A stretch of DNA of 64,000 nucleotides, taken from assembly GCA_937920635.1 (NCBI GenBank), contig CAKZUE010000006.1, forward strand, positions 62,001 to 126,000, read 5' to 3'. The DNA is from an uncultured Bryobacteraceae bacterium. Lineage in GTDB: Bacteria; Acidobacteriota; Terriglobia; Bryobacterales; Bryobacteraceae. The notes beneath the pieces are model-generated. The model was not told where the DNA came from. It did no database searches and worked only from the letters and a program-made list of their open reading frames with translations. Of this stretch, positions 19,974-33,386 are shown piece after piece (within the stretch, counting starts at the first letter, position 1; each line of letters starts with the position of its first letter). A program made the translations under genes and the position numbers.

Positions 19974-21383
<1,410 letters not shown>

Positions 21384-21464
21384 TCAGACCGCCGTGTCGG
21401 AAATTCCGTCACGCCGCGGCGCTGCTCGAAGACGTAAGCCTTGTGAATGCAACACGCGGCGATT

Positions 21465-21480
21465 TGGCCCGCAAACTGCT
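21465..21480 (+). promoter_or_regulatory. Candidate sigma-54 promoter of the Qrc-like operon
   Basis: TGGCCCGCAAACTGCT fits the -24/-12 consensus TGGCACG-N4-TTGCW with two mismatches. The invariant GG (21466-21467) and GC (21478-21479) have exactly ten bases between them. Transcription would start near 21491, giving a 30-nt leader with the AGGAGG site of the first operon gene. A sigma-54 activator gene lies at the far end of the operon, which supports the assignment. No rpoN is in the window. Confidence 0.5.
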
Positions 21481-21520
21481 GTTGCAAGGGTGAACGGCAA
21501 GACCGTTCAGGAGGTGTTCA

Positions 21521-21799
21521 ATGTTCGGAGTCGATTGGAACGACCCGCAAACGCTCTGGCTCAACCTGACCAACCTCGGGCTGGGCATCATCACGTTGAT
21601 CTGCGTCGGAGTCGCCGCGTATGCCGGCCTGGCCGAGGTGGCTGCGCGCTGGCGGAAGGCGGCGGAGGCTGAAGCCGACGCGACGATGGCGACGCACGGC
21701 TTCCACACGCCGGAGCTCGGCTTCACCATGGCTGACGGCGGCGAGCCGGAACAGCCCGTAGAAGAGAAGAAGAAGCGCCGCCGGACCCGGAAGTCCTGA
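21521..21799 (+). CDS. Small membrane protein, first gene of the Qrc-like operon
   Basis: 92 residues; AGGAGG lies seven bases upstream of the ATG. One membrane segment (LGLGIITLICVGVAAYAGLAE, about 18-38) is followed by a hydrophilic tail ending in a strongly basic stretch (EEKKKRRRTRKS). I do not recognise a family. Its position immediately downstream of the candidate sigma-54 promoter and 28 bp before the first GcvH-like gene suggests an accessory or small membrane subunit of the complex. Confidence 0.8.
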   Translation: MFGVDWNDPQTLWLNLTNLGLGIITLICVGVAAYAGLAEVAARWRKAAEAEADATMATHGFHTPELGFTMADGGEPEQPVEEKKKRRRTRKS

Positions 21800-21827: not shown

Positions 21828-22718
21828 ATGCAGTGCCCATTCCTGAAAGAGGCGCGTGTGCGCTGGTGCCGGGCGGCGGGCATCCGCAAACCGATCGCTG
21901 AATCGCAGAGCGACGATGCGGCCTGCCGCTGCCTGGACGAGCGCTTCCGCGACTGCCGCTGGGTCTCGCCGGAGTTCCACGAGGCTCCGCCGCCCTGCCC
22001 GCACCTGGAGCATGCCCTGGTACAGTACTGCGAAGCCGCGCCGCTGACGCGGTTTGTGCCGTTCAGCGAGCCGCTGCTGACGCGCTGCGGCACCGACGCG
22101 CACAAGTATTGCGACTTCTATCTGGACCTGCTGCGGGCGGCGCGGCCGCCGCTCAAGGACCAGGAGTTCTCGGCGCCGGAGGATCTGTTCTACACGCGCA
22201 ACCACTGGTGGATCGACCTTCAGGAGCAGGGGCTGTGCCATCTGGGCGCCGATGCGTTCCTGGCCCGGCTGTTGGGAGGCGTGGAACGCGCGGGCATCCT
22301 GACGCCGCGGGGCACGGCGTTTCCGGCGGTGGTGTTTACCTGCGGCGGAACGGACTTCACGGTTACATTTCCAGCGCAGATCCGGATTGAAGCTGCGAAC
22401 CCGCATCTGCGGATCGAGCCGCGCCGGATGCTGCGCGAACCGTACTCGGCGGGCTGGCTGTTCCGCGGCATCATTGGCGAGGGCCAGATGCGGGAGCTGA
22501 AGGAATCCCTGATCACCGCCTCCGAGGCGAGGCGCCTGATGGAGGAAGACGCGCGGCGCGTCAACGAAATGCTGCAATCCCTGCGCCCGGCGGGCGCCGT
22601 GCCGGCCATGGCCGACGGAGGGCTGTTTGAGGAAGGGCTCCTCGGCCTGCTCGAGCCGCACGAAGCGCTCCGCCTGTTTCATGAAACCGGCTCGCCTGCG
22701 GCGGGCCAGCGGAGATAG
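21828..22718 (+). CDS. Cys-rich protein with degenerate GcvH-like domain (N-terminal partner of the Qrc-like operon)
   Basis: 296 residues. The first 95 hold nine cysteines (3, 14, 33, 35, 43, 57, 68, 87, 95), enough to bind an iron-sulfur cluster or zinc; which is not known. Residues 122-215 fit the glycine-cleavage H-protein (lipoyl-like) fold: YTRNHWWIDL matches the HEWV entry strand and REPYSAGWLF matches the DPYGEGWL exit. The region that should carry the lipoyl lysine (FTCGGTDFTVTF) has none, so lipoylation is not expected. A helical C-terminus follows (EARRLMEEDARRVNEML). It ends six bases before the pentaheme cytochrome gene, and a second such protein closes the operon. A role in assembly or as a structural subunit is an inference. 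Confidence 0.75.
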   Translation: MQCPFLKEARVRWCRAAGIRKPIAESQSDDAACRCLDERFRDCRWVSPEFHEAPPPCPHLEHALVQYCEAAPLTRFVPFSEPLLTRCGTDAHKYCDFYLDLLRAARPPLKDQEFSAPEDLFYTRNHWWIDLQEQGLCHLGADAFLARLLGGVERAGILTPRGTAFPAVVFTCGGTDFTVTFPAQIRIEAANPHLRIEPRRMLREPYSAGWLFRGIIGEGQMRELKESLITASEARRLMEEDARRVNEMLQSLRPAGAVPAMADGGLFEEGLLGLLEPHEALRLFHETGSPAAGQRR

Positions 22719-22724
22719 GAGAAC

Positions 22725-23309
22725 ATGATTCGGACAGGCATTCTGTTCCTGGCTGGTTTCAGCGTGGCCCTGAGCGCGGGCTGGTGGAGCGTTCCGCGCC
22801 TTCTGTACCGAACAGAGCCGCAGCCGGCGCAGTTCAGCCACATCGCCCACACGGGCGAGAAGGGCGGCATGAGCTGCGAGGACTGCCACTCGTTCCGCGC
22901 CGACGGCACCTTCGCCGGCATTCCGAAGCTCGAGACGTGCGCCGCCTGCCACAGCGCGCCGATGGGCGAGACGCAGGCGGAGAAGGACTTCATCGCGCGC
23001 TTTGTCGAGCCCGGCGTCGAGCCGGAATGGAAGGTGTACTCGCGCCAGCCGGACAATGCCTGGTTCCCGCACTCGGCCCATGTGCTGCGGGGCAAGGTGG
23101 CCTGTGAGAAGTGCCACGGCGAGATCGGGAAGTCGGACAGGCTGCCTGTCTACCGGGTGCACCGCTTCACCGGCTATCCGGAGGACGTGATGGGGAAGCG
23201 CGCCGGGCCGCTCGGCCTGAAGCGCGCGGGCGGCATGCGCATGGACGACTGCGTGGCCTGCCACCGGCAGAACCGGATCGAGCATAGCTGCCTCGATTGC
23301 CACAAGTGA
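22725..23309 (+). CDS. Pentaheme cytochrome c, QrcA-like
   Basis: 194 residues with an uncleaved-looking N-terminal membrane anchor (ILFLAGFSVALSAGWW). Five CXXCH heme c sites are present: CEDCH 51-55, CAACH 72-76, CEKCH 127-131, CVACH 176-180 and CLDCH 189-193. Extra histidines (H39, H42, H116, H119, H146) could be distal ligands. It is of the cytochrome c7/c3 type and matches the position and size of QrcA/ActA, the periplasmic multiheme subunit of CISM (iron-sulfur/molybdoprotein-type) complexes. Electrons would pass between a periplasmic cytochrome and the iron-sulfur subunits encoded next. AGGAG precedes the start. Confidence 0.88.
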   Translation: MIRTGILFLAGFSVALSAGWWSVPRLLYRTEPQPAQFSHIAHTGEKGGMSCEDCHSFRADGTFAGIPKLETCAACHSAPMGETQAEKDFIARFVEPGVEPEWKVYSRQPDNAWFPHSAHVLRGKVACEKCHGEIGKSDRLPVYRVHRFTGYPEDVMGKRAGPLGLKRAGGMRMDDCVACHRQNRIEHSCLDCHK

Positions 23310-23328: not shown

Positions 23329-25224
23329 ATGAAGATCGACCGTAGAGATGTCCTGTCCCTGGCCGGCGGCGCGGCAGCCGGGCTGGCGGTGTCTCCGCTG
23401 CCGTGGCGGCTGCTGGGCGACACGGCCATCTGGAGCCAGAACTGGCACTGGATGCCTCGCGTGCCGCGCGGCGCCATCGAAGAGCGCGAGGCGCGCTGCA
23501 CGCTGTGCCCGTCGGCCTGTCCCGTGAAGCTGCGGATGACCAACGGCATCGTGCATGGCGTTGCGCCCAACGGCGGCGCCCTGTGTCCCGCCGGTTTCGC
23601 CGCGCATCATCTGGCGTGGCATCCGCTGCGGCTGCGCGAGTGCCGGCGGAAAGACCAGGCGGTTCCACTCGAAGAGGCGCTCTCCTCGCTGCGCGCGGCG
23701 GTGGCGCAGCGCCGCGGCGCCGTGGCGGTGCTCGACCTGGCCCCGGGGCGCGCCTCCTCGCTGCTGCACCGCCGCCACATGGCTGCGCTCGGCGGCGCGT
23801 ATCTGATGCCGCCCCGGATTGAAGGCGGCACGGCGCACGCGGTGGAAGCTCTGCTCGAAAAACGCCGCGCACTGGCTGCCGATCTCGCTAGCGTCAAGGC
23901 CGTGCTCTCGGTGAGCACCCCATTGCTCGACGGCTGGGCCGCTCCCTCTTCGGCCGTCGAACGCGGCTTCCGCCTGATTCAGGCGGAGCCGCACCGCTCG
24001 CGCACCGCCGGGCTGGCCGACGAGTGGCTCCCCGTGAAGCCGGGCTCGGAAACCGCCCTGCTGCTGGCTGTCGGGCATTGCTGGCTCAAGCGGCCTGAGA
24101 TGGCGCAACAACTCGAGCGGCTGAAGGGCGCGGAGGCGTGGCGCCAGGCGGCGGAAGCCATGCCGCCGCAGCGCGCGGCGGAGCTGGCGGGCATCGAAGC
24201 GGCGCGCATCGAAGCCGCTGCCGCCGATCTGCTCGGCCACCGCCCGTCGCTCGTTCTGGCCGACGGAGATCCGGTGGGCGGCCCCCTGAGCCGCGAGGCG
24301 CGCGCCGCCGCGGCGGCGCTGAATATTCTGCTCGGCGCGGAAGGCTTCCGCCCGGTGCCGCCGCTGCCCCTGCCGAAAGACTGGACGCTGGCCGAGGCGC
24401 AGAGCCTCGAAGAGGCGGGCGACGGCTCGATCGGTGTGCTCATCATCGACGAGCCCTGGCCGGGAGTTTCCGTGCCGTGGCAGCTCGTCGAGAAGAAGCT
24501 CGCGCGCGGCGCCGTGGTGGCGGCCGTCACCTGGAACCGCGCCCAGTTTGCTCGCCATGCCGAATGGCTGATTCCCGCGCCGGTGTGGCTGGAGGCGCCG
24601 CTGGACGCCGCGCAGCCGCACGATGCGCCGCGCGCGCAGATCGCGGTGGCCCCGGCGGTGATGGCAAGGCCGAAAGACACGATCTCCGCCGCGGAGGCGA
24701 CGGCGCGGCTGGCGGGCGTCGAGATGACGGCCGCGGATGAGTTTGCCGCGCTGGCGCAGGCGGCCGGCAGTGAAGCGGCGCAGATCGGCGACAACGGCTT
24801 CTACTGGAGCAGCGAGGCGAAAGGCGCCGCACCCGCCGCGGCGCGCATCGCGCCGGAGCAGTGGACAGCGGAGACGTGGCTGCGCGCGGCCGCGCCCAGC
24901 GCGGCATCGCCTGCGGTGGTCGCCTTCGGGTGGCGGCAGGCGGCCGTGTCGCCGATGCTCGGCAAGCTGTGGCAGGAGTCGGAACTCCGCGAAGGGCCGC
25001 AGCAGGCCGTGCTGCACCCGGATCTGCTGCGCCGCCAAGGCATGGAGGAAGGCGTGCTGGCGCGGCTCATGTCTCCGCGCGGAGCCTGGCCCGTGCGGGT
25101 GCGGGCGGCCGAGACCCGGCCGGATGTGATTGCCGTCTGCGGCGGGCCGTCGCTCGCGCTGGCCTGCGAAGTCCGGCCCGACGGCGCCTGGACGCTGGGT
25201 GAAGCCAAGGTGGTGAAGTCATGA
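23329..25224 (+). CDS. Molybdopterin-oxidoreductase-like subunit, QrcB-like
   Basis: 631 residues. A Tat signal (RRDVLSLAGGAAAG) indicates folding in the cytoplasm and export. An N-terminal [4Fe-4S] motif, C57, C60, C64 and C86 (CTLCPSAC ... ALCP), is typical of the Moco/bisPGD oxidoreductase family. The sequence just before it (IWSQNWHWMPRVPRG) resembles QrcB, which in Desulfovibrio lacks a pterin cofactor. The protein is short for the family (700-1000 residues is common), and no clear cofactor-ligating Cys/SeCys or Ser is obvious; loss of the cofactor is an inference. Its stop overlaps the ATG of the ferredoxin subunit by four bases. Confidence 0.85.
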   Translation: MKIDRRDVLSLAGGAAAGLAVSPLPWRLLGDTAIWSQNWHWMPRVPRGAIEEREARCTLCPSACPVKLRMTNGIVHGVAPNGGALCPAGFAAHHLAWHPLRLRECRRKDQAVPLEEALSSLRAAVAQRRGAVAVLDLAPGRASSLLHRRHMAALGGAYLMPPRIEGGTAHAVEALLEKRRALAADLASVKAVLSVSTPLLDGWAAPSSAVERGFRLIQAEPHRSRTAGLADEWLPVKPGSETALLLAVGHCWLKRPEMAQQLERLKGAEAWRQAAEAMPPQRAAELAGIEAARIEAAAADLLGHRPSLVLADGDPVGGPLSREARAAAAALNILLGAEGFRPVPPLPLPKDWTLAEAQSLEEAGDGSIGVLIIDEPWPGVSVPWQLVEKKLARGAVVAAVTWNRAQFARHAEWLIPAPVWLEAPLDAAQPHDAPRAQIAVAPAVMARPKDTISAAEATARLAGVEMTAADEFAALAQAAGSEAAQIGDNGFYWSSEAKGAAPAAARIAPEQWTAETWLRAAAPSAASPAVVAFGWRQAAVSPMLGKLWQESELREGPQQAVLHPDLLRRQGMEEGVLARLMSPRGAWPVRVRAAETRPDVIAVCGGPSLALACEVRPDGAWTLGEAKVVKS

Positions 25225-25958
25225 GGAAGCTCGGCGCAGAGAACAAAACGGCGCGTTACGCGATGCTGATCGATCTGGACCGCTGCAACGGCTGCGGCGC
25301 TTGCATGGTGGCCTGCGCGGTGGAGAACAACGTGCCGCCGCCGCAGCCATCGGCCACGCCGCGCACCGGGTTGAACTGGCTGCGTGTGTTCCGCCTCAAT
25401 ACGGGCGGGCGCGACGCCTTCATCCCGGTGATGTGCATGCAATGCGGTGATGAAACCCCCTGCCAGAGCGTCTGCCCGCAGAAGGCGGTGGAGTTCGACC
25501 CGGCGACGGGCATCGTGGGACAGATCCCCGAGCGCTGCCTGGGCTGCCGCTACTGCATGGCCGCCTGCCCCTATCAGGCGCGCGTCTTCAACTGGTGGGA
25601 TCCGCAGTGGCCCGCGGGCATGGAGCAGGCGCTCAACCCGCGGGTGAGCGCGCGGCAGCGCGGCACGGTGGAGAAGTGCAACTTCTGCCACGGGCGCTGG
25701 CAGGCGGCGCTCGAGAAAGCCGCGCAGGACGGCGAGTCCGGACCGGTGCGCTACACGCCCGCCTGTGCGGAAGCCTGCCCGGCGCAGGCCATCCGGTTCG
25801 GCGATCTGAACGACGAAGAGTTCGCGGCCGAGTGCCGGGACAGCGGCGCCTTCCGCCTGCTGGAATCTCTCGGCACCGGGCCAAAGGTGTTCTACAGAAC
25901 CTCGCGCGCCGAGGTGCGGGAAGCGACGCGGGGGTTCGGGGAGGTGAAGCGTGGTTGA
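25221..25958 (+). CDS. Four-cluster ferredoxin subunit, QrcC-like
   Basis: 245 residues without a signal peptide, as expected for a subunit exported with its Tat partner. Four cysteine motifs should hold four [4Fe-4S] clusters: CNGCGACMVAC, CMQCGDETPCQSVCP, CLGCRYCMAACP, and CNFC with the later ACAEACP. This is the PsrB/NrfC/QrcC electron-wire arrangement. It would carry electrons between the QrcB-like subunit and the NrfD-type membrane subunit. Unlike the related region of ActB in this window, its third motif keeps all four cysteines. It overlaps both neighbours (four bases with 23329-25224, eight with the next), which shows tight coupling. Confidence 0.93.
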   Translation: MRKLGAENKTARYAMLIDLDRCNGCGACMVACAVENNVPPPQPSATPRTGLNWLRVFRLNTGGRDAFIPVMCMQCGDETPCQSVCPQKAVEFDPATGIVGQIPERCLGCRYCMAACPYQARVFNWWDPQWPAGMEQALNPRVSARQRGTVEKCNFCHGRWQAALEKAAQDGESGPVRYTPACAEACPAQAIRFGDLNDEEFAAECRDSGAFRLLESLGTGPKVFYRTSRAEVREATRGFGEVKRG

Positions 25959-27210
25959 CCGGATCGACGAAGCCTGGATCGCGCGGGGCGTGCGGCGCGC
26001 GCCGTTCAGCCGGTTCCTGCTGTGGGCGGCGCCGTGGGCGGCATTGCTGCTGCTGGGCGCCTACGCGATTTTCCTCTGCCTGCGCGACGGCCTGTTCCAT
26101 ACCAACATGGACAACCGCTACGTGTTCGGGCTGTGGATCTTTCTCGATCTGACGGTGATCGCGCTGGGCGCGGGCGCGTTCTTCACGGGCTTCCTGCTGT
26201 ACGTGCTGCGGAAGACGGAACTGAAGGCGGTGATCAACAGCGCCGTCGTGATCGGGCTGGTCTGTTACAGCGGCGCGGTGCTGATTCTGGCCGTCGACGT
26301 GGGCCAGCCGCTGCGCGCGTGGTTCACCTTCTACCACCCGAACGTGCACTCGATGCTCACCGAGGTGACTTTCTGCATCACCTGCTACCTGACGGTGCTG
26401 CTGATCGAGTACGTGCCGGTTTTCCTGAAGAACCGCCGGCTGAAGTGGAAGCCGTCGATGCTGGTGTTCGAGTACCACCTGCACAAGGTGATGGTGGTGT
26501 TCGCGCTGATCGGGACGCTGCTGTCGTTCTTCCATCAGGGCTCGCTCGGCGGGCTGTTCGGCGTGCTGCGCGGGCGGCCGTTCGCCTTCCGCGAGGGGCT
26601 GCTGATCTGGCCGAGCACGTTCTTCCTGTTCGTGCTGTCGGCGATGGCGGTGGGGCCGTCGTTCGTGGCGCTGACAACGGGGCTTGCCGAAAAGATCACC
26701 GGGCGGCGGCTGGTGAAAAACGAGGTCTACCAGACGCTGGGGCGGATCTCGGGCAAGCTGCTGCTGGCCTATGTGTTCTTCAAGTGCCTGGACACGCTGC
26801 TGTGGATCAACCAGACGGCGCCGGAGCGCGGCTTTCCCGCGCACCGGTTCTACGAGTACGGCGGCGCGTTCGGCACGTGGATCCTGTTTGCGGAGATCGC
26901 GCTGCTGGGCCTGGTGCCGGCGCTCATTCTGCTGAAGCCGGAGTGGCGCGCGCGGCGCGGGCTGCTGCTGGGCGCGGCGGCGATGGCCTGCCTGGGCGTG
27001 ACGCTGAACCGCTTCGTGTTCACCATCCAGACGCTGGCGCTGCCGACGATGCCGTTCGACCGGCTGCTGCTGTACTGGCCGTCGTGGCAGGAGTTCGCGG
27101 CGTTCGGATTCGTGGTGGCCTACGGCATGCTGGTGTACTCGTTCTCCTACCGGTATCTGACGCTGTTTCCGCAGGAGCGGGAGCTGGCGATGACGGAGGC
27201 GCGGAGGTAA
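25951..27210 (+). CDS. NrfD/PsrC-family quinone-binding membrane subunit, QrcD-like
   Basis: 419 residues from a GTG with GGAGG upstream. About ten hydrophobic helices are visible, for instance FLLWAAPWAALLLLGAYAIF near 18, LWIFLDLTVIALGAGAFFTG near 62, and FGFVVAYGMLVYSFSY near the end. This is the ten-helix NrfD fold that binds menaquinone near the periplasmic face. Conserved-looking polar residues inside helices (F-H-Q-G-S-L-G-G near 195-202, W-x-E/Q near the C-terminus) are typical of the family. It should couple quinone redox chemistry to the exported iron-sulfur subunits. Confidence 0.92.
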   Translation: MVDRIDEAWIARGVRRAPFSRFLLWAAPWAALLLLGAYAIFLCLRDGLFHTNMDNRYVFGLWIFLDLTVIALGAGAFFTGFLLYVLRKTELKAVINSAVVIGLVCYSGAVLILAVDVGQPLRAWFTFYHPNVHSMLTEVTFCITCYLTVLLIEYVPVFLKNRRLKWKPSMLVFEYHLHKVMVVFALIGTLLSFFHQGSLGGLFGVLRGRPFAFREGLLIWPSTFFLFVLSAMAVGPSFVALTTGLAEKITGRRLVKNEVYQTLGRISGKLLLAYVFFKCLDTLLWINQTAPERGFPAHRFYEYGGAFGTWILFAEIALLGLVPALILLKPEWRARRGLLLGAAAMACLGVTLNRFVFTIQTLALPTMPFDRLLLYWPSWQEFAAFGFVVAYGMLVYSFSYRYLTLFPQERELAMTEARR

Positions 27211-27213
27211 GCC

Positions 27214-28044
27214 ATGTTTCCCTGGGTGTACGGCTTTGAATGGAACGCCGGATATCTGATCTTCCTGGGCGTGTTCTTCACGGTGGCCCTGGTGGTGGCG
27301 GGCACGGTGTTGGCCGCGCTGTGGCGGAGCTTCCGCACGGTTCGGAAGAAACAGGAAGGGCGCGTGTACTGGCACACTGCCTTTGAAGAGCTCACGCCCG
27401 AGGAGCGCCGCTGCCGGCACGCGATCACGGGCGAGTTGCCGGAGCGGTGCTGCGACCGCGAATTCGACTGCCGCGGCTGCCGCATCCACGCGCGGCTGCT
27501 GTATTCGGACGAAGCCGCGGCCCATGCCGCCGGATCCGGACAGGCTGAGGCGTGCGGTGTGGCCGTGCCGCTGGACCGCTACTACCACCGCGGCCACACC
27601 TGGGTCCGCGAAGCCGAAGACGGCACGCTGCTGGTAGGGCTGGACGATCTCGGCCGCCGCCTGCTGGGCGCGGACGGCACGGTCGAGACGCCGCCGGCGG
27701 GCGCGGAGCTGCGCGTGAACGAGCCCGCCTTCGTGGCGCGGCGCAATGGCGTCGAGGCGCGGATCCTGTCGCCGGTGGACGGGACCGTGCTCGGCCCGGC
27801 TTCAGACGGAGAGGCGCTGGTGCGCGTGCGCCCCGCGGAGGATTTCCGCACCACGCATCTGCTGCGGGGAGGCGAAGCCGTGGCCTGGATGCGTCACGAG
27901 CTGGACCGGTTGCAGGTGGCGCTGGCGGCTTCCTGCGGCGCGGCGTCGCTGGCCGATGGCGGCGCAGTGGCAGAGGATCTGGGCCGGCGGCTGACGGCGC
28001 GGGAGTTCGACACCGCCTGCGGACTGGCGTTCCTGGACGTGTGA
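27214..28044 (+). CDS. Membrane-anchored GcvH-like protein with Cys motif, last gene of the Qrc-like operon
   Basis: 276 residues. A membrane segment (about 12-36) is followed by a Cys motif: C67, C79-C80, C86 and C89 in RCRHAITGELPERCCDREFD then CRGC. The pattern CxxxFDCxxC recalls Cys motifs I associate with GcvH-like proteins of anaerobic Deltaproteobacteria (from memory, not checked). Residues 120-205 are GcvH-like (YYHRGHTWVREAEDGTLLVG; SPVDGTVLG is the lipoyl-hairpin region), but the lipoyl lysine position is glycine (RNGVEAR). It starts three bases after the NrfD stop and ends three bases before the convergent sigma-54 activator gene. It probably belongs to the complex or its assembly; no catalytic role is claimed. 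Confidence 0.78.
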   Translation: MFPWVYGFEWNAGYLIFLGVFFTVALVVAGTVLAALWRSFRTVRKKQEGRVYWHTAFEELTPEERRCRHAITGELPERCCDREFDCRGCRIHARLLYSDEAAAHAAGSGQAEACGVAVPLDRYYHRGHTWVREAEDGTLLVGLDDLGRRLLGADGTVETPPAGAELRVNEPAFVARRNGVEARILSPVDGTVLGPASDGEALVRVRPAEDFRTTHLLRGGEAVAWMRHELDRLQVALAASCGAASLADGGAVAEDLGRRLTAREFDTACGLAFLDV

Positions 28045-28047
28045 GGG

Positions 28048-29400
28048 TCAGCGCTCGATGCCGTAGCGCTTGAGCTTTTCGTAGAGCGTCGAGCGGTCGA
28101 TGCCAAGTGATGCGGCGGCCTCTTTGACGTTGCCGCCGGTGCGGCGCAGCGCCGCCTCGATCATGAGTTTCTCCATGTCGGCCAGTGTCAGGTTGTCGGG
28201 CATCTGGATTTTGGCCGCGCCATTGTTTCGCAGGAAGGAGAAGTCCTCTGCCGTGAGCGTCCTGCCACGGCAGCTCACAATGGCGCGCTCGACGGCGTTC
28301 TCCAGTTCGCGCACGTTGCCCGGCCAGGAGTGGTCCATCAGCAGGCGCATGGCATCCTGCGCAATCTCCTCCACGGGTTTGCCGAGCTCGTGCGAAATGC
28401 GCTCGACGAAGTGCCCGGCCAGCAGTGGAATGTCCTCGCGGCGCTCCCGCAGCGGCGGGATCTGGATCTCGATCACGTTGAGGCGGTAGAAGAGGTCTTC
28501 ACGGAACTTGCCTTCTTCCACGAGCGCGCGGAGGTCCTTGTGCGTGGCGGCGATCACACGCGCATCCACATGGACCTCCTCCGACCCGCCGACGCGGTAG
28601 AACGAGCGTTCCTGCAACACGCGCAGCAGGTCCGCCTGGAGCTTGGGGCCGATGTCGCCGATTTCGTCCAGGAAGATGGTGCCGCCGTCGGCGAGTTCGA
28701 ACTTGCCCTTCTTGCGCTCCGCCGCGCCGGTGAAGGCGCCCTTCTCGTAACCGAACAGCTCGCTTTCGAGCAGGGTTTCCGCCAGCGCGGCGCAACTGAC
28801 GGCGATGAAGGGTTTCTGGGCGCGGTTGCCGGAGAAATGGATGGCGCGGGCCACCAGTTCCTTGCCCGTTCCGCTCTCGCCGCGGATGAGCACGGTGCTG
28901 CGCAGGCTGGAGACTTCGCGCGCCAGCTCCAGCACCTCGAGCATCCGCGGGCTCTTGCAGATGATGTCGTGGAACTGGTAGCGGCGCTGGAGCTTCTTGC
29001 GGAGGATGAGGTTCTCGCGCTGGAGGCGTTTCACCTTGATGATGCGGCCGACCAGCAGCGAGATCTCCTCGGGGTTGCAGGGCTTGACGATGTACTCCTG
29101 GGCGCCTTCCTTGATGGCGGTGATGGCGGTGTCGACGGTGGCGTAGGCGGTGATGATGATGATGGAGGCGTCGGGATGGAGGCGGCGGATCTCCATCAGC
29201 GTGTCGATGCCGTCCATGCCGCCGGGCATTTTCAGGTCGATGAAGTAGATGGCGTAGTCGGTTTTCTTCGCCAGCTCCACCGCCTCGCGCCCGCTGGACG
29301 CGGTGTCGACGAGGTAACCGTCCTCGCGCAGCCACGCGGCCAGCGACTCGCACATGATCTCTTCATCGTCGACGACCAGGATCTGCCATTGCGGCTTCAT
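28048..29400 (-). CDS. NtrC-family sigma-54-dependent response regulator
   Basis: 450 residues from the ATG at 29400, which overlaps the archaemetzincin stop (ATGA). The receiver domain is 5-120 with D55 ([10 protein letters not shown]) and K106. The AAA+ sigma-54 interaction domain has Walker A GESGTGKE at 174-181, the sigma-54-contacting GAFTGA at 221-226 and Walker [12 protein letters not shown]. The C-terminal Fis-type HTH ends with [20 protein letters not shown]. It activates sigma-54 promoters when phosphorylated by the heme-motif kinase upstream. The candidate promoter at 21465 makes the convergent Qrc-like operon its likely target. Confidence 0.95.
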
Positions 29401-29942
29401 GCGGACACCTCCCGGAGGCGCGCCGCGCAGGACGGGCACGGCGCCTCCCCTTTCAGATCGATCTGTCCCACCTGCACCGACAGCCGCATGACGCAGCCCG
29501 GCGAGGAGCAGTGCACCAGCCCGAGCAGATGCCCCGCCTCATGCACCGCCTCCTTGCGCGCGCGCTCCAGCAGCAGCGCTTCGTTGCCTGGCAGGCCGTA
29601 GAATTCCTGCCGCAGCCGCGCCACCGACACCACGCCCGCGCGTCCCTTCAACTGCGCCTGCCCGTAAACGAAGCTGAGCATGGGGATGAACAGATCCACG
29701 CCCGTCACCGCCAGCGCTTTCGGGATGCCCTCCGGCAGCGAGGCAAGGACGCTTTCGAGCACCGCCGGCGCGCTCCATTGCGCGCGGCGGGCGTCGTAGG
29801 CGCCCTGCGGGATCTCCAGGGGCTTGAGCCCCGCCACGCGGACGGGCAGGCATTGCTCAAGAGCCGCGGCCATCGCCGGGATCACGCCTTGCGGCACGGC
29901 GCGGTCTTCGGGCGTTCTCAATTCGAAGACGCCCACGACCAT
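29397..29942 (-). CDS. amzA: Archaemetzincin-type zinc metalloprotease (peptidase M54)
   Basis: 181 residues from the ATG at 29942 (a GTG one codon earlier is possible). It holds the full archaemetzincin signature: HEAGHLLGLVHC with H134, E135, H138 and H144, then C145, C150, M152, and a CPSC at 169-172. The histidines bind catalytic zinc and the four cysteines a structural zinc in the family. There is no signal peptide, so it should be cytoplasmic. Substrates of bacterial archaemetzincins are not established. Its ATG overlaps the kinase stop (TGATG) and its stop overlaps the regulator start (ATGA). A protease locked between a kinase and its regulator is unusual and suggests a role in the signalling circuit. 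Confidence 0.9.
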   Translation of the reverse strand: MVVGVFELRTPEDRAVPQGVIPAMAAALEQCLPVRVAGLKPLEIPQGAYDARRAQWSAPAVLESVLASLPEGIPKALAVTGVDLFIPMLSFVYGQAQLKGRAGVVSVARLRQEFYGLPGNEALLLERARKEAVHEAGHLLGLVHCSSPGCVMRLSVQVGQIDLKGEAPCPSCAARLREVSA

Positions 29943-31555
29943 CACCCCCGCACCGCCCCGGACGCCTCGGTCACGGGCGTCTTCTGCAAAGGCAGGCTGA
30001 CCGTGAAGGTGGTTCCCTGGCCGGGGCGGCTCTGCACTTCGATCTCGCCCAGATGCGCCTGGACGATGCCGTAGGTCACCGCCAGCCCCAACCCCACGCC
30101 CTTGCCTTCGGGTTTGGTGGTGAAGAAGGGATCAAAGATCTTCGGCAGCACCTCCGGCGGAATCCCCTCGCCGTCGTCGGTGACGCGGATGAAGACCTCG
30201 CTGTCGCGGCGTCCGGTTTCGACCCGGAGAGTGCCCCTGCCGTGCGGCTGCATCGCCTCGGCGGCGTTCAGGGCGAGATTCAGGATCACCTGCTGCATCT
30301 GCGAGCGGTCGCACAGCACCGGCGGCAGGGCCGGATCCAGTTGCAGTTGCACCTCTACGTTGGCGAGCTTGAACTTGTGCGACACCAGCGAAAGGGTGGA
30401 TTCAATCACCTGGTTGAGGTTGGTTTCTATGTGATGCGGGGCTGAGCGGCGGGAGAAAGCCAGCAGGTCGCCGACGATGCGCCCCACGCGCGTGGTCTCC
30501 GAAGCGATCTGCCCCAGGTAGCGGCGGAAGTCCGCCAGCCGCTCCGGCGGCACGCCGTCTTCGCGCAGCAGGCGCTCCATCAGTTTGGCCAGGTTCAGCA
30601 CGCCGGCCACGGGGTTGTTGATCTCATGGGCGACGCTGGCGGCAAGCTGGCCGAGCGAGGCCAGCCGGTCGCTTTGCATGAGCTTCTGGTGGGCGCTTTT
30701 CAGTTCCCGCGTCCGCTGCTCGACCTTTTCCTCCAGCTCCTGGGTGAAGCTGTTGATGCGGTCCATGGCGTCCTTGAGCCGCACCCGCATGACTTCGAAG
30801 GCGCGCGCCAGGTCGGTGATCTCGCCGGCATGATCCGGGATTTCGACGGGGTGGTCCAGCTCCATGCGGCTGATCGACTCCGTGCTGGCGATCAGCCGCT
30901 GGATCGGCTGGCTGAAAAACCGGCGGGCGAAGAAATAAATCAGCGGGCAGATCAGCAGGATCTCGCCAATGGCGCGCACGGCGATGCGCGTCTGCATGTT
31001 GGCCAGTTCCTCGTCCACGGTATCGAGCTTCAGGCTCACTTCCAGCACCCCGAGCACCCGCACCTGCGGCGGATGGGCGTGGCAGTCGGCGTTGCTGCAC
31101 TGCCGTTCGTTCGGGATGGGCGTGATCACCGACAGCCGCCGCGGACCTTCCGTGCGTTCGTGGATCTCCACCCGCTCGCGCAGCGACAGCGCAGGAAGCT
31201 GCAGCCCTTGCCGGTGGCACCGCGAACATTGCGGATCCTCGAGGGCAAACCGCTGTCCTACGTCCTCCTGATTCGTAGAGAACGTCACCTCACCCTGCCC
31301 GTTGAACAGCCGCAGCCGGTCGATGCCCTGCTTCTCGGCGATGGTCCGCATTGTCTGGTAGACGTCGTCGCGGCGGTCGGCGAGCATGGCATGCCAGGTG
31401 GCCGAGGTGATGCTGCCGGATAGCTGATCGGCGCCCGCGATCACCACGTCCAGCATGTGGCGCTCCTCGGCGCGGTAGATCGTGTAGCCGGAGATCACGG
31501 CGATGACGCCCACCACCGCGGCCACCGCCAGCATGAGTTTGGTGACCAGGCGCAT
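29942..31555 (-). CDS. Sensor histidine kinase with periplasmic heme c-like motifs
   Basis: 537 residues from the ATG at 31555 (AGGAG upstream); the longer open frame upstream lacks similarity. Membrane helix 5-25; periplasmic sensor about 30-190 containing CSRCH (110-114) and a CX4CH motif, CSNADCH (153-159); helix 196-212; HAMP to about 265; coiled coil 268-295; HisKA with H310 (ASVAHEINNPVAG); and a full HATPase (NLALNAAEAMQP, VTDDGEGIPPE, GKGVGLGLAV). Periplasmic CXXCH sites in a kinase suggest covalent heme sensing redox state, oxygen, NO or periplasmic cytochromes. It heads the kinase-protease-activator unit that faces the Qrc-like operon. Confidence 0.93.
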   Translation of the reverse strand: MRLVTKLMLAVAAVVGVIAVISGYTIYRAEERHMLDVVIAGADQLSGSITSATWHAMLADRRDDVYQTMRTIAEKQGIDRLRLFNGQGEVTFSTNQEDVGQRFALEDPQCSRCHRQGLQLPALSLRERVEIHERTEGPRRLSVITPIPNERQCSNADCHAHPPQVRVLGVLEVSLKLDTVDEELANMQTRIAVRAIGEILLICPLIYFFARRFFSQPIQRLIASTESISRMELDHPVEIPDHAGEITDLARAFEVMRVRLKDAMDRINSFTQELEEKVEQRTRELKSAHQKLMQSDRLASLGQLAASVAHEINNPVAGVLNLAKLMERLLREDGVPPERLADFRRYLGQIASETTRVGRIVGDLLAFSRRSAPHHIETNLNQVIESTLSLVSHKFKLANVEVQLQLDPALPPVLCDRSQMQQVILNLALNAAEAMQPHGRGTLRVETGRRDSEVFIRVTDDGEGIPPEVLPKIFDPFFTTKPEGKGVGLGLAVTYGIVQAHLGEIEVQSRPGQGTTFTVSLPLQKTPVTEASGAVRG

Positions 31556-32952: not shown

Positions 32953-33309
32953 CTATTCTTCCACTTCGAACCGCACCGGTTGTTCGATCAGCTTGGGTTC
33001 TTTGCCGCGGGTCAGGACCATCAGGCGATACCGGGTGCCCGGCTTGGCCCCTTTCGGGATCACGCTCTTCAGCGTCGTGGCGTCCTGCTCTTTGATCGCC
33101 ATCTCAATATCGTTCTGGCCGTCGGTGAGGTACAACTTGGCCACGTGTTGCTTGTCCAGGTTCTCGCCCGTTACGACGATCTCCGTGCCGATCTTCCCGC
33201 TCATCGGTTCCACCGACGTGCACCGCGGGATCGGCTCCTGGGCGATGGCAGGAGGAGCGGCAAGGATTCCCACCAGCAGCGCCGCCAGCAACATGAGAGA
33301 CAACCGCAT
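32953..33309 (-). CDS. Small secreted TIG/IPT-like protein
   Basis: 118 residues: a signal peptide (LMLLAALLVGILAAPPAIAQ) and then one Ig-like TIG/IPT module (SVEPMSGKIGTEIVVTGENL, typical of the fold's first strands and GTxVxITGxxF loop). No catalytic residues are seen, and the function is unknown. The gene has a strong ribosome site (AGGAGG) and the best sigma-70-like promoter in the window (33387-33415), so high expression is likely. It lies between a LuxR-type regulator and glgC, all on the minus strand. Confidence 0.85.
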   Translation of the reverse strand: MRLSLMLLAALLVGILAAPPAIAQEPIPRCTSVEPMSGKIGTEIVVTGENLDKQHVAKLYLTDGQNDIEMAIKEQDATTLKSVIPKGAKPGTRYRLMVLTRGKEPKLIEQPVRFEVEE

Positions 33310-33386
33310 CTGAAATTCCTCCTACTTCGATCCTAGGCTCCGCCATGGCCGAATGCAAGAGGGAAGAGTCAGGATTTCGAGGAAGA

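Follow-up and report, generated by a model that had tools for sequence, protein, structure and literature searches.

Sequence comparison links a predicted sigma-54 promoter before a Qrc-like operon of a Bryobacteraceae bacterium to the neighbouring NtrC-type regulator

A seven-gene Qrc operon in an uncultured Bryobacteraceae bacterium is probably driven by a sigma-54 promoter, which would be activated through a pair of upstream dyads by a regulator encoded convergently with the operon (rough probability 0.87). The window, i.e. the whole stretch of 64,000 nucleotides that was analysed, corresponds to G000:C6:62001-126000, where G000 is the bacterium's own 4.15 Mb genome, which is 98% complete. 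The main comparison set consisted of 61 genomes of the family (Bryobacteraceae, Acidobacteriota), own genome included. The promoter region and operon comprise the following features.

21373-21389, plus strand: enhancer site 1, 17 bp, containing the perfect dyad GTCTGA-TTT-TCAGAC (EM motif, relatives' model)
21396-21412, plus strand: enhancer site 2, 17 bp, GTCGGAAATTCCGTCAC, after a 6-bp spacer (EM motif, relatives' model)
21465-21480, plus strand: sigma-54 -24/-12 box TGGCCCGCAAACTGCT, GG-N10-GC (motif, family conservation, relatives' matrix)
21491, plus strand: predicted transcription start (offset from the -24/-12 box; the 5'-terminal hairpin begins here)
21491-21509, plus strand: predicted 5'-terminal mRNA hairpin, 7-bp stem and 5-nt loop, directly before the ribosome site
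21510-21514, plus strand: ribosome-binding site GGAGG, 6 nt before the ATG
21521-21799, plus strand: first gene, small membrane protein of 92 aa (no family match)
21828-22718, plus strand: H1, GcvH-like-domain protein (domain search)
22725-23309, plus strand: QrcA multihaem cytochrome (199.2 bits, cut-off of 180 passed)
23329-25224, plus strand: QrcB-like protein (169.2 bits, below the cut-off of 440)
25221-25958, plus strand: QrcC-like iron-sulphur protein (290.2 bits, below the cut-off of 400)
25951-27210, plus strand: QrcD NrfD-like membrane subunit (570.3 bits, cut-off of 570 passed)
27214-28044, plus strand: H2, second GcvH-like-domain protein (domain search)

The operon had been called Qrc-like in the sequence-only reading, and the term is apt, as QrcA and QrcD exceed their NCBIfam cut-offs and QrcB and QrcC fall below theirs. 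The Qrc genes are flanked in nearly all relatives by H1 and H2, in which the GcvH-like domains are weak and the lipoyl lysine is, by eye, seemingly missing. The same reading had proposed a GG-N10-GC box in TGGCCCGCAAACTGCT, a start 30 nt before the first gene and a correctly spaced ribosome site. The sequence, coordinates and spacing of the box were verified, and the distances from the predicted start to the ATG at 21521 and from GGAGG to this ATG are as had been described. The box is located between the plus-strand operon and a divergent gene that was named by eye as enolase; an enolase gene also lies beside the operon in G044, a genome of the same genus. Besides the -24/-12 GG-N10-GC element, a sigma-54 promoter needs RpoN, and the genome encodes one (single PF04552 match, 3.6e-59), which by eye carries the TRRTVAKYRE box.

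The generic sigma-54 consensus is TGGCACGNNNNTTGC. At three or fewer mismatches, this consensus matched the window 213 times, fewer than the 297 expected from shuffles, i.e. no enrichment, and a generic scan as sole evidence was rejected as uninformative. As judged by sequence comparison, the bare motif is weak without relatives, and far above chance once these are used. All 17 upstream regions first examined (the window and 16 relatives) include GG-N10-GC, at four or fewer mismatches, before the small gene. In the full set, all 20 Bryobacteraceae operons with an available 5' end have a GG-N10-GC box upstream of the first gene, at a distance of 36-96 nt, the family boxes having been chosen initially by the GG-N10-GC pattern with up to four mismatches. 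These 20 operons are those of the same 16 relatives, G045 and G012 (5' ends taken from other contigs), G044 and the window; G005, of which no 5' end was seen, is not counted, and the operon 5' end is absent from the fetched contig in three of 19 family relatives (L054, L065 and L067). When both strands of the window (127,966 positions) were scored with a matrix built from 18 relatives, neither the window nor the same-genus genome being among them, the best position was the window site (13.4 bits, next 12.7). In leave-one-out scoring, an equal score is expected 0.001-0.047 times per locus in 100 nt.

The predicted leader hairpin begins at the predicted +1/+2 in five genomes, those of the window and, in similar form, of L129, L055, L066 and L063. 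Its outer T-A pair in the window is C-G in the same-genus L129, a two-sided compensatory change. Most other relatives compared do not have the hairpin. Its position agrees with the start predicted at 21491.

A search upstream of the box for NtrC-type enhancer dyads revealed the two 17-bp dyads at 21373-21412. An EM search over 17 upstream regions, which assumed one site per sequence, returned a 40-bp element made of two 17-bp sites 6 bp apart, with a total of 693 bits as compared with 270 +/- 7 (maximum 281) in 20 dinucleotide-shuffled sets. The consensus from 14 relatives is GTGCCGGATTTCCAGAC, spacer, GTCTGAAAATCCnnCAC. A sequence-only model was trained on these 14, with the window excluded and with L061 and L064 left out because of a second site that is offset or poor (poor in L064). 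In the bacterium's own genome, where 150 of 977 first-look candidates were scored, the sole match at E<=10 (1.6e-4) is at 21375-21412, with 24.1 bits on the plus strand and 16.7 bits on the minus strand. Across the 61 genomes, 21 places were found at E<5e-3, 19 of them before Qrc operons; these 19 are the 14 trained sites and five that had no part in the training (own genome, G011, G012, G044 and G045), and the remaining two have no Qrc homologues. One of the latter, an enhancer-like pair at G053:C201:22060-22092 (21 bits plus, 18 bits minus) with no Qrc-operon homologue there, is by its sequence a possible extra target of the regulator; the other is on G041:C38. Within the window, a partial match at 33298-33321 (9.9 bits), only 31 nt upstream of the following potential start codon, was rejected as a second target, and the model scan gave no strong dyad match that would indicate autoregulation of the kinase and regulator genes.

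The distance from enhancer start to box is -80/-81 in seven cases, -90 to -93 in nine, -102 in one, -114 in two and -138 in one. Successive distances differ by roughly one turn of the DNA helix (Rayleigh R of 0.73 for a 10.5-bp period), and the upstream dyad enhancer is in helical phase with the promoter, as is characteristic of NtrC-type systems.

High-scoring QrcD (>520 bits) is encoded in 20 of the 61 family genomes, own among them, 13 scoring above the curated cut-off. A QrcD profile search of genome contigs gave 20 loci, five of which (L146, L147, L149, L153 and L155) duplicate the contigs of L063, L055, L065, L060 and L066, to judge from identical lengths and match identities. The enhancer model also found operon pieces that are scattered over separate contigs or had been overlooked by the QrcD search. 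Thus G044, which is Qrc-negative by QrcD, was exposed by its enhancer match as carrying an operon on a contig that ends inside qrcB. The QrcB fragment, H1, small gene product and QrcA of G044 are 79-91% identical to those of the window, and its QrcA scores above the cut-off.

Three genes on the opposite strand follow the operon.

28048-29439, minus strand: NtrC/AtoC-type response regulator with receiver, AAA+ domain with GAFTGA and Fis-type HTH; its true start is likely near 29400
29397-29945, minus strand: archaemetzincin-like peptidase (M54), between kinase and regulator (PF07998, 1.2e-19)
29942-31555, minus strand: sensor histidine kinase with CSRCH and CSNADCH in its presumed periplasmic domain

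The regulator had been described as the only sigma-54 activator in the window, convergent at the far end of the operon, and both points hold. PF00158 has 17 matches genome-wide, of which one is inside the window (C6:90462-90965, window 28462-28965); about ten other strong sigma-54 activators are encoded in the genome. The protein has the make-up of an NtrC-type activator, including Walker A and the GAFTGA loop in the AAA+ domain. Of 26 segments from relatives, with two contigs entering the count twice, 25 contain G[AS]FTGA, and the one of L134 was unread by the pattern. The NCBIfam equivalog cut-offs were missed for AtoC (492.6 against 714), NtrC (432.5 against 558.6) and ZraR (429.7 against 760).

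An orthologue of the regulator (68-82% identity; next best 52%) was identified in 22 of the 61 family genomes, comprising 20/20 QrcD-positive genomes versus 2/41 others (G027 and G037; Fisher 4e-14, a test that ignores shared ancestry). When Qrc is scored by QrcA, the regulator is present in 20 of 21 positive genomes, the exception being G044, where it is perhaps missing because the contig ends inside qrcB. The gene adjoins H2 in seven of 19 relatives; two contigs end too soon to judge, and in 10 of the 17 informative relatives it lies apart from the operon. Among 199 genomes drawn from the phylum, the regulator is found in 3/3 with QrcD (own, G089 and G122) versus 2/196 others. G089 and G122 belong to other families of the phylum and have the whole gene set; their enhancer is visible by eye (model score 10.6 bits in G122, unlisted for G089), and of their two boxes that of G122 alone is GG-N10-GC. 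By eye, the L171 box has GA in place of the -12 GC. A paralogous regulator (49-52% identity) is encoded less than 3 kb from a second QrcD-like/HybB-type gene (G000:C53:11623-15775), with a similar arrangement in many family genomes; the two sets may represent sister regulatory systems.

In three genomes without Qrc (G027, G245 and G221), the regulator gene converges on a gene for a membrane protein of 43-45 residues. This protein, encoded beside the regulator at L135, L173 and L174, resembles the start of the window's first gene product. Upstream of the tiny gene lie a dyad pair, which reaches only 7-10 bits by the model and was read by eye, and a GG-N10-GC box, which in G027 is so near the ATG that start codon or box may be misassigned. 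Since enhancer and box are kept in these genomes, the link between regulator and enhancer would be separable from Qrc itself. In G037 the regulator and kinase are present, but no match was obtained to Qrc or to the small gene.

Qrc operons were also found in MAGs labelled Ignavibacteriae/Bacteroidota (L150-L152, L154, L156-L161, L163 and L164), labels that may be wrong, binning errors also being possible. The regulator, archaemetzincin and kinase genes are convergent in L157, L159 and L160 and divergent in L163 and L164, and only the kinase end of this set is present on the L158 contig. Seven upstream regions from these MAGs have GG-N10-GC (four) or GG-N10-GT (three), and six of the seven loci also carry paired dyads, with a distance to the box of -124 to -126; in L161, nothing beyond a loose resemblance to the enhancer was found. 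As far as can be judged from sequence, the same predicted switch, with a matching regulator, recurs before almost every related electron-transfer operon examined, in two phyla. According to passages of a 2021 survey, QrcD is restricted to Deltaproteobacteria (PMC8076601).

The proposed pairing of the sigma-54 promoter with the neighbouring NtrC-type regulator is supported by these comparisons, namely conservation of the box and of the paired dyad upstream of it, the joint presence of regulator and Qrc whether or not their genes are neighbours, the same genes and enhancer in the Ignavibacteriae MAGs, and the regulator, dyads and box in the three Qrc-less genomes. The element at 21465-21480 would drive the small membrane protein, H1, QrcA-D and H2. 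The kinase encoded just upstream of the regulator presumably phosphorylates it, and a regulator oligomer would then bind the dyads at 21373-21412, ~80-120 bp before the start. The bound regulator may loop onto the sigma-54 polymerase, with ATP used for promoter opening.

An unlikely alternative is that the promoter is sigma-54-dependent and another enhancer-binding protein activates it, the neighbour controlling something else. The genome has around ten other strong activator domains of this type, and the regulator does not adjoin the operon in 10/17 relatives; against this, the orthologue tracks the operon even when apart from it and is retained next to the same dyads in genomes without Qrc, and the dyads were found once in the bacterium's own genome. 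It is considerably less probable that GG-N10-GC is a chance occurrence, the operon having a housekeeping promoter and the dyads being bound by an ordinary activator or repressor. Generic consensus matches are indeed common, but the box is present in 20/20 operons, holds the top matrix rank and is helically phased to the dyads. Least probable of all, the dyads, being inverted repeats, might act at the level of RNA or DNA structure, as an attenuator or a terminator of an upstream gene, instead of serving as an enhancer bound by a protein. However, the dyads precede the predicted start, and in the window they are located before the divergent enolase gene and not after it; enolase is unmatched in the loci of 19 relatives, and the 17-6-17 layout is kept across phyla. 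Activation by the convergent regulator through the paired dyads is preferred.

The CSRCH and CSNADCH motifs of the kinase precede a HAMP domain, and the protein has a sub-threshold match to PF21563, a class-40H chemoreceptor sensor. Class-40H sensors bind haem. In the kinase segments of relatives, CX4CH is kept in 24/25 and CXXCH in 19/25 (two contigs counted twice), and two of the six segments without CXXCH are cut segments. These c-type haem motifs suggest that the kinase would be a periplasmic redox sensor that binds c-type haem and responds to a redox signal. The archaemetzincin gene is kept with the kinase and regulator in most Qrc-bearing loci examined, and had no match beside the regulator in four Qrc-less genomes examined.

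No match to dsrA was found in the bacterium's own genome. This gene is present in nine of the 61 family genomes, five of the 21 that are Qrc-positive by QrcA and four of the 40 negative. Qrc without dsrA is seen in 16 of the 21 Qrc-positive family genomes, own included. Given these counts, Qrc is here probably not mainly part of sulfate respiration.

As in two-component activation by NtrC, AtoC and ZraR, a receiver-AAA+(GAFTGA)-Fis HTH protein is combined with paired upstream dyads and a -24/-12 box, but the window regulator is below the equivalog cut-offs and has its own dyad sequence and target operon. Subunits QrcA, B, C and D are shared with the Desulfovibrio Qrc menaquinone reductase as it is described in parts of PMC6303296 and PMC13059093, whereas the window operon adds three genes and a dedicated two-component system, in a genome without dsrA. 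Passages of PMC10564751 on the Bryobacteraceae sulfate reducer MAG CO124, of the same family, report qrcABCD transcribed under anoxic conditions and mention neither promoter nor regulator; the present genome differs in having no dsrA match. Genome-wide sigma-54 and enhancer mapping is available for the Qrc-bearing D. vulgaris (PMC4641369), and a term search of the main text of that sigma-54 regulome study returned no mention of qrc, DVU0692 or DVU0695. A term search of PMC12316311 returned nothing on this regulation, and no description of it was found in the open-licence literature, from which many papers are omitted, on Qrc, sigma-54, Acidobacteria and archaemetzincin. The mechanism is of a classical kind; within the literature searched, neither the regulon nor its conservation across phyla appears to have been reported.

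A broader proposal, to which we give slightly less than even odds, is that the kinase with periplasmic c-type haems, the archaemetzincin and the sigma-54 regulator form a dedicated redox-switch module. The oldest target of this module would be the tiny membrane protein, and Qrc would be a passenger that joined later or can be separated from it. The module may have moved across Acidobacteriota and Ignavibacteriae, and would make the synthesis of a quinone-linked complex depend on the redox state of periplasmic cytochromes, in bacteria mostly without dsrA. The main reading supplies Qrc outside the classical sulfate reducers with a candidate regulator that is open to experiment and with a predicted operator of 40 bp. 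It also ties Qrc to a predicted haem-bearing sensor, through which it might be learned under what conditions environmental Acidobacteriota and Ignavibacteriae produce the complex.
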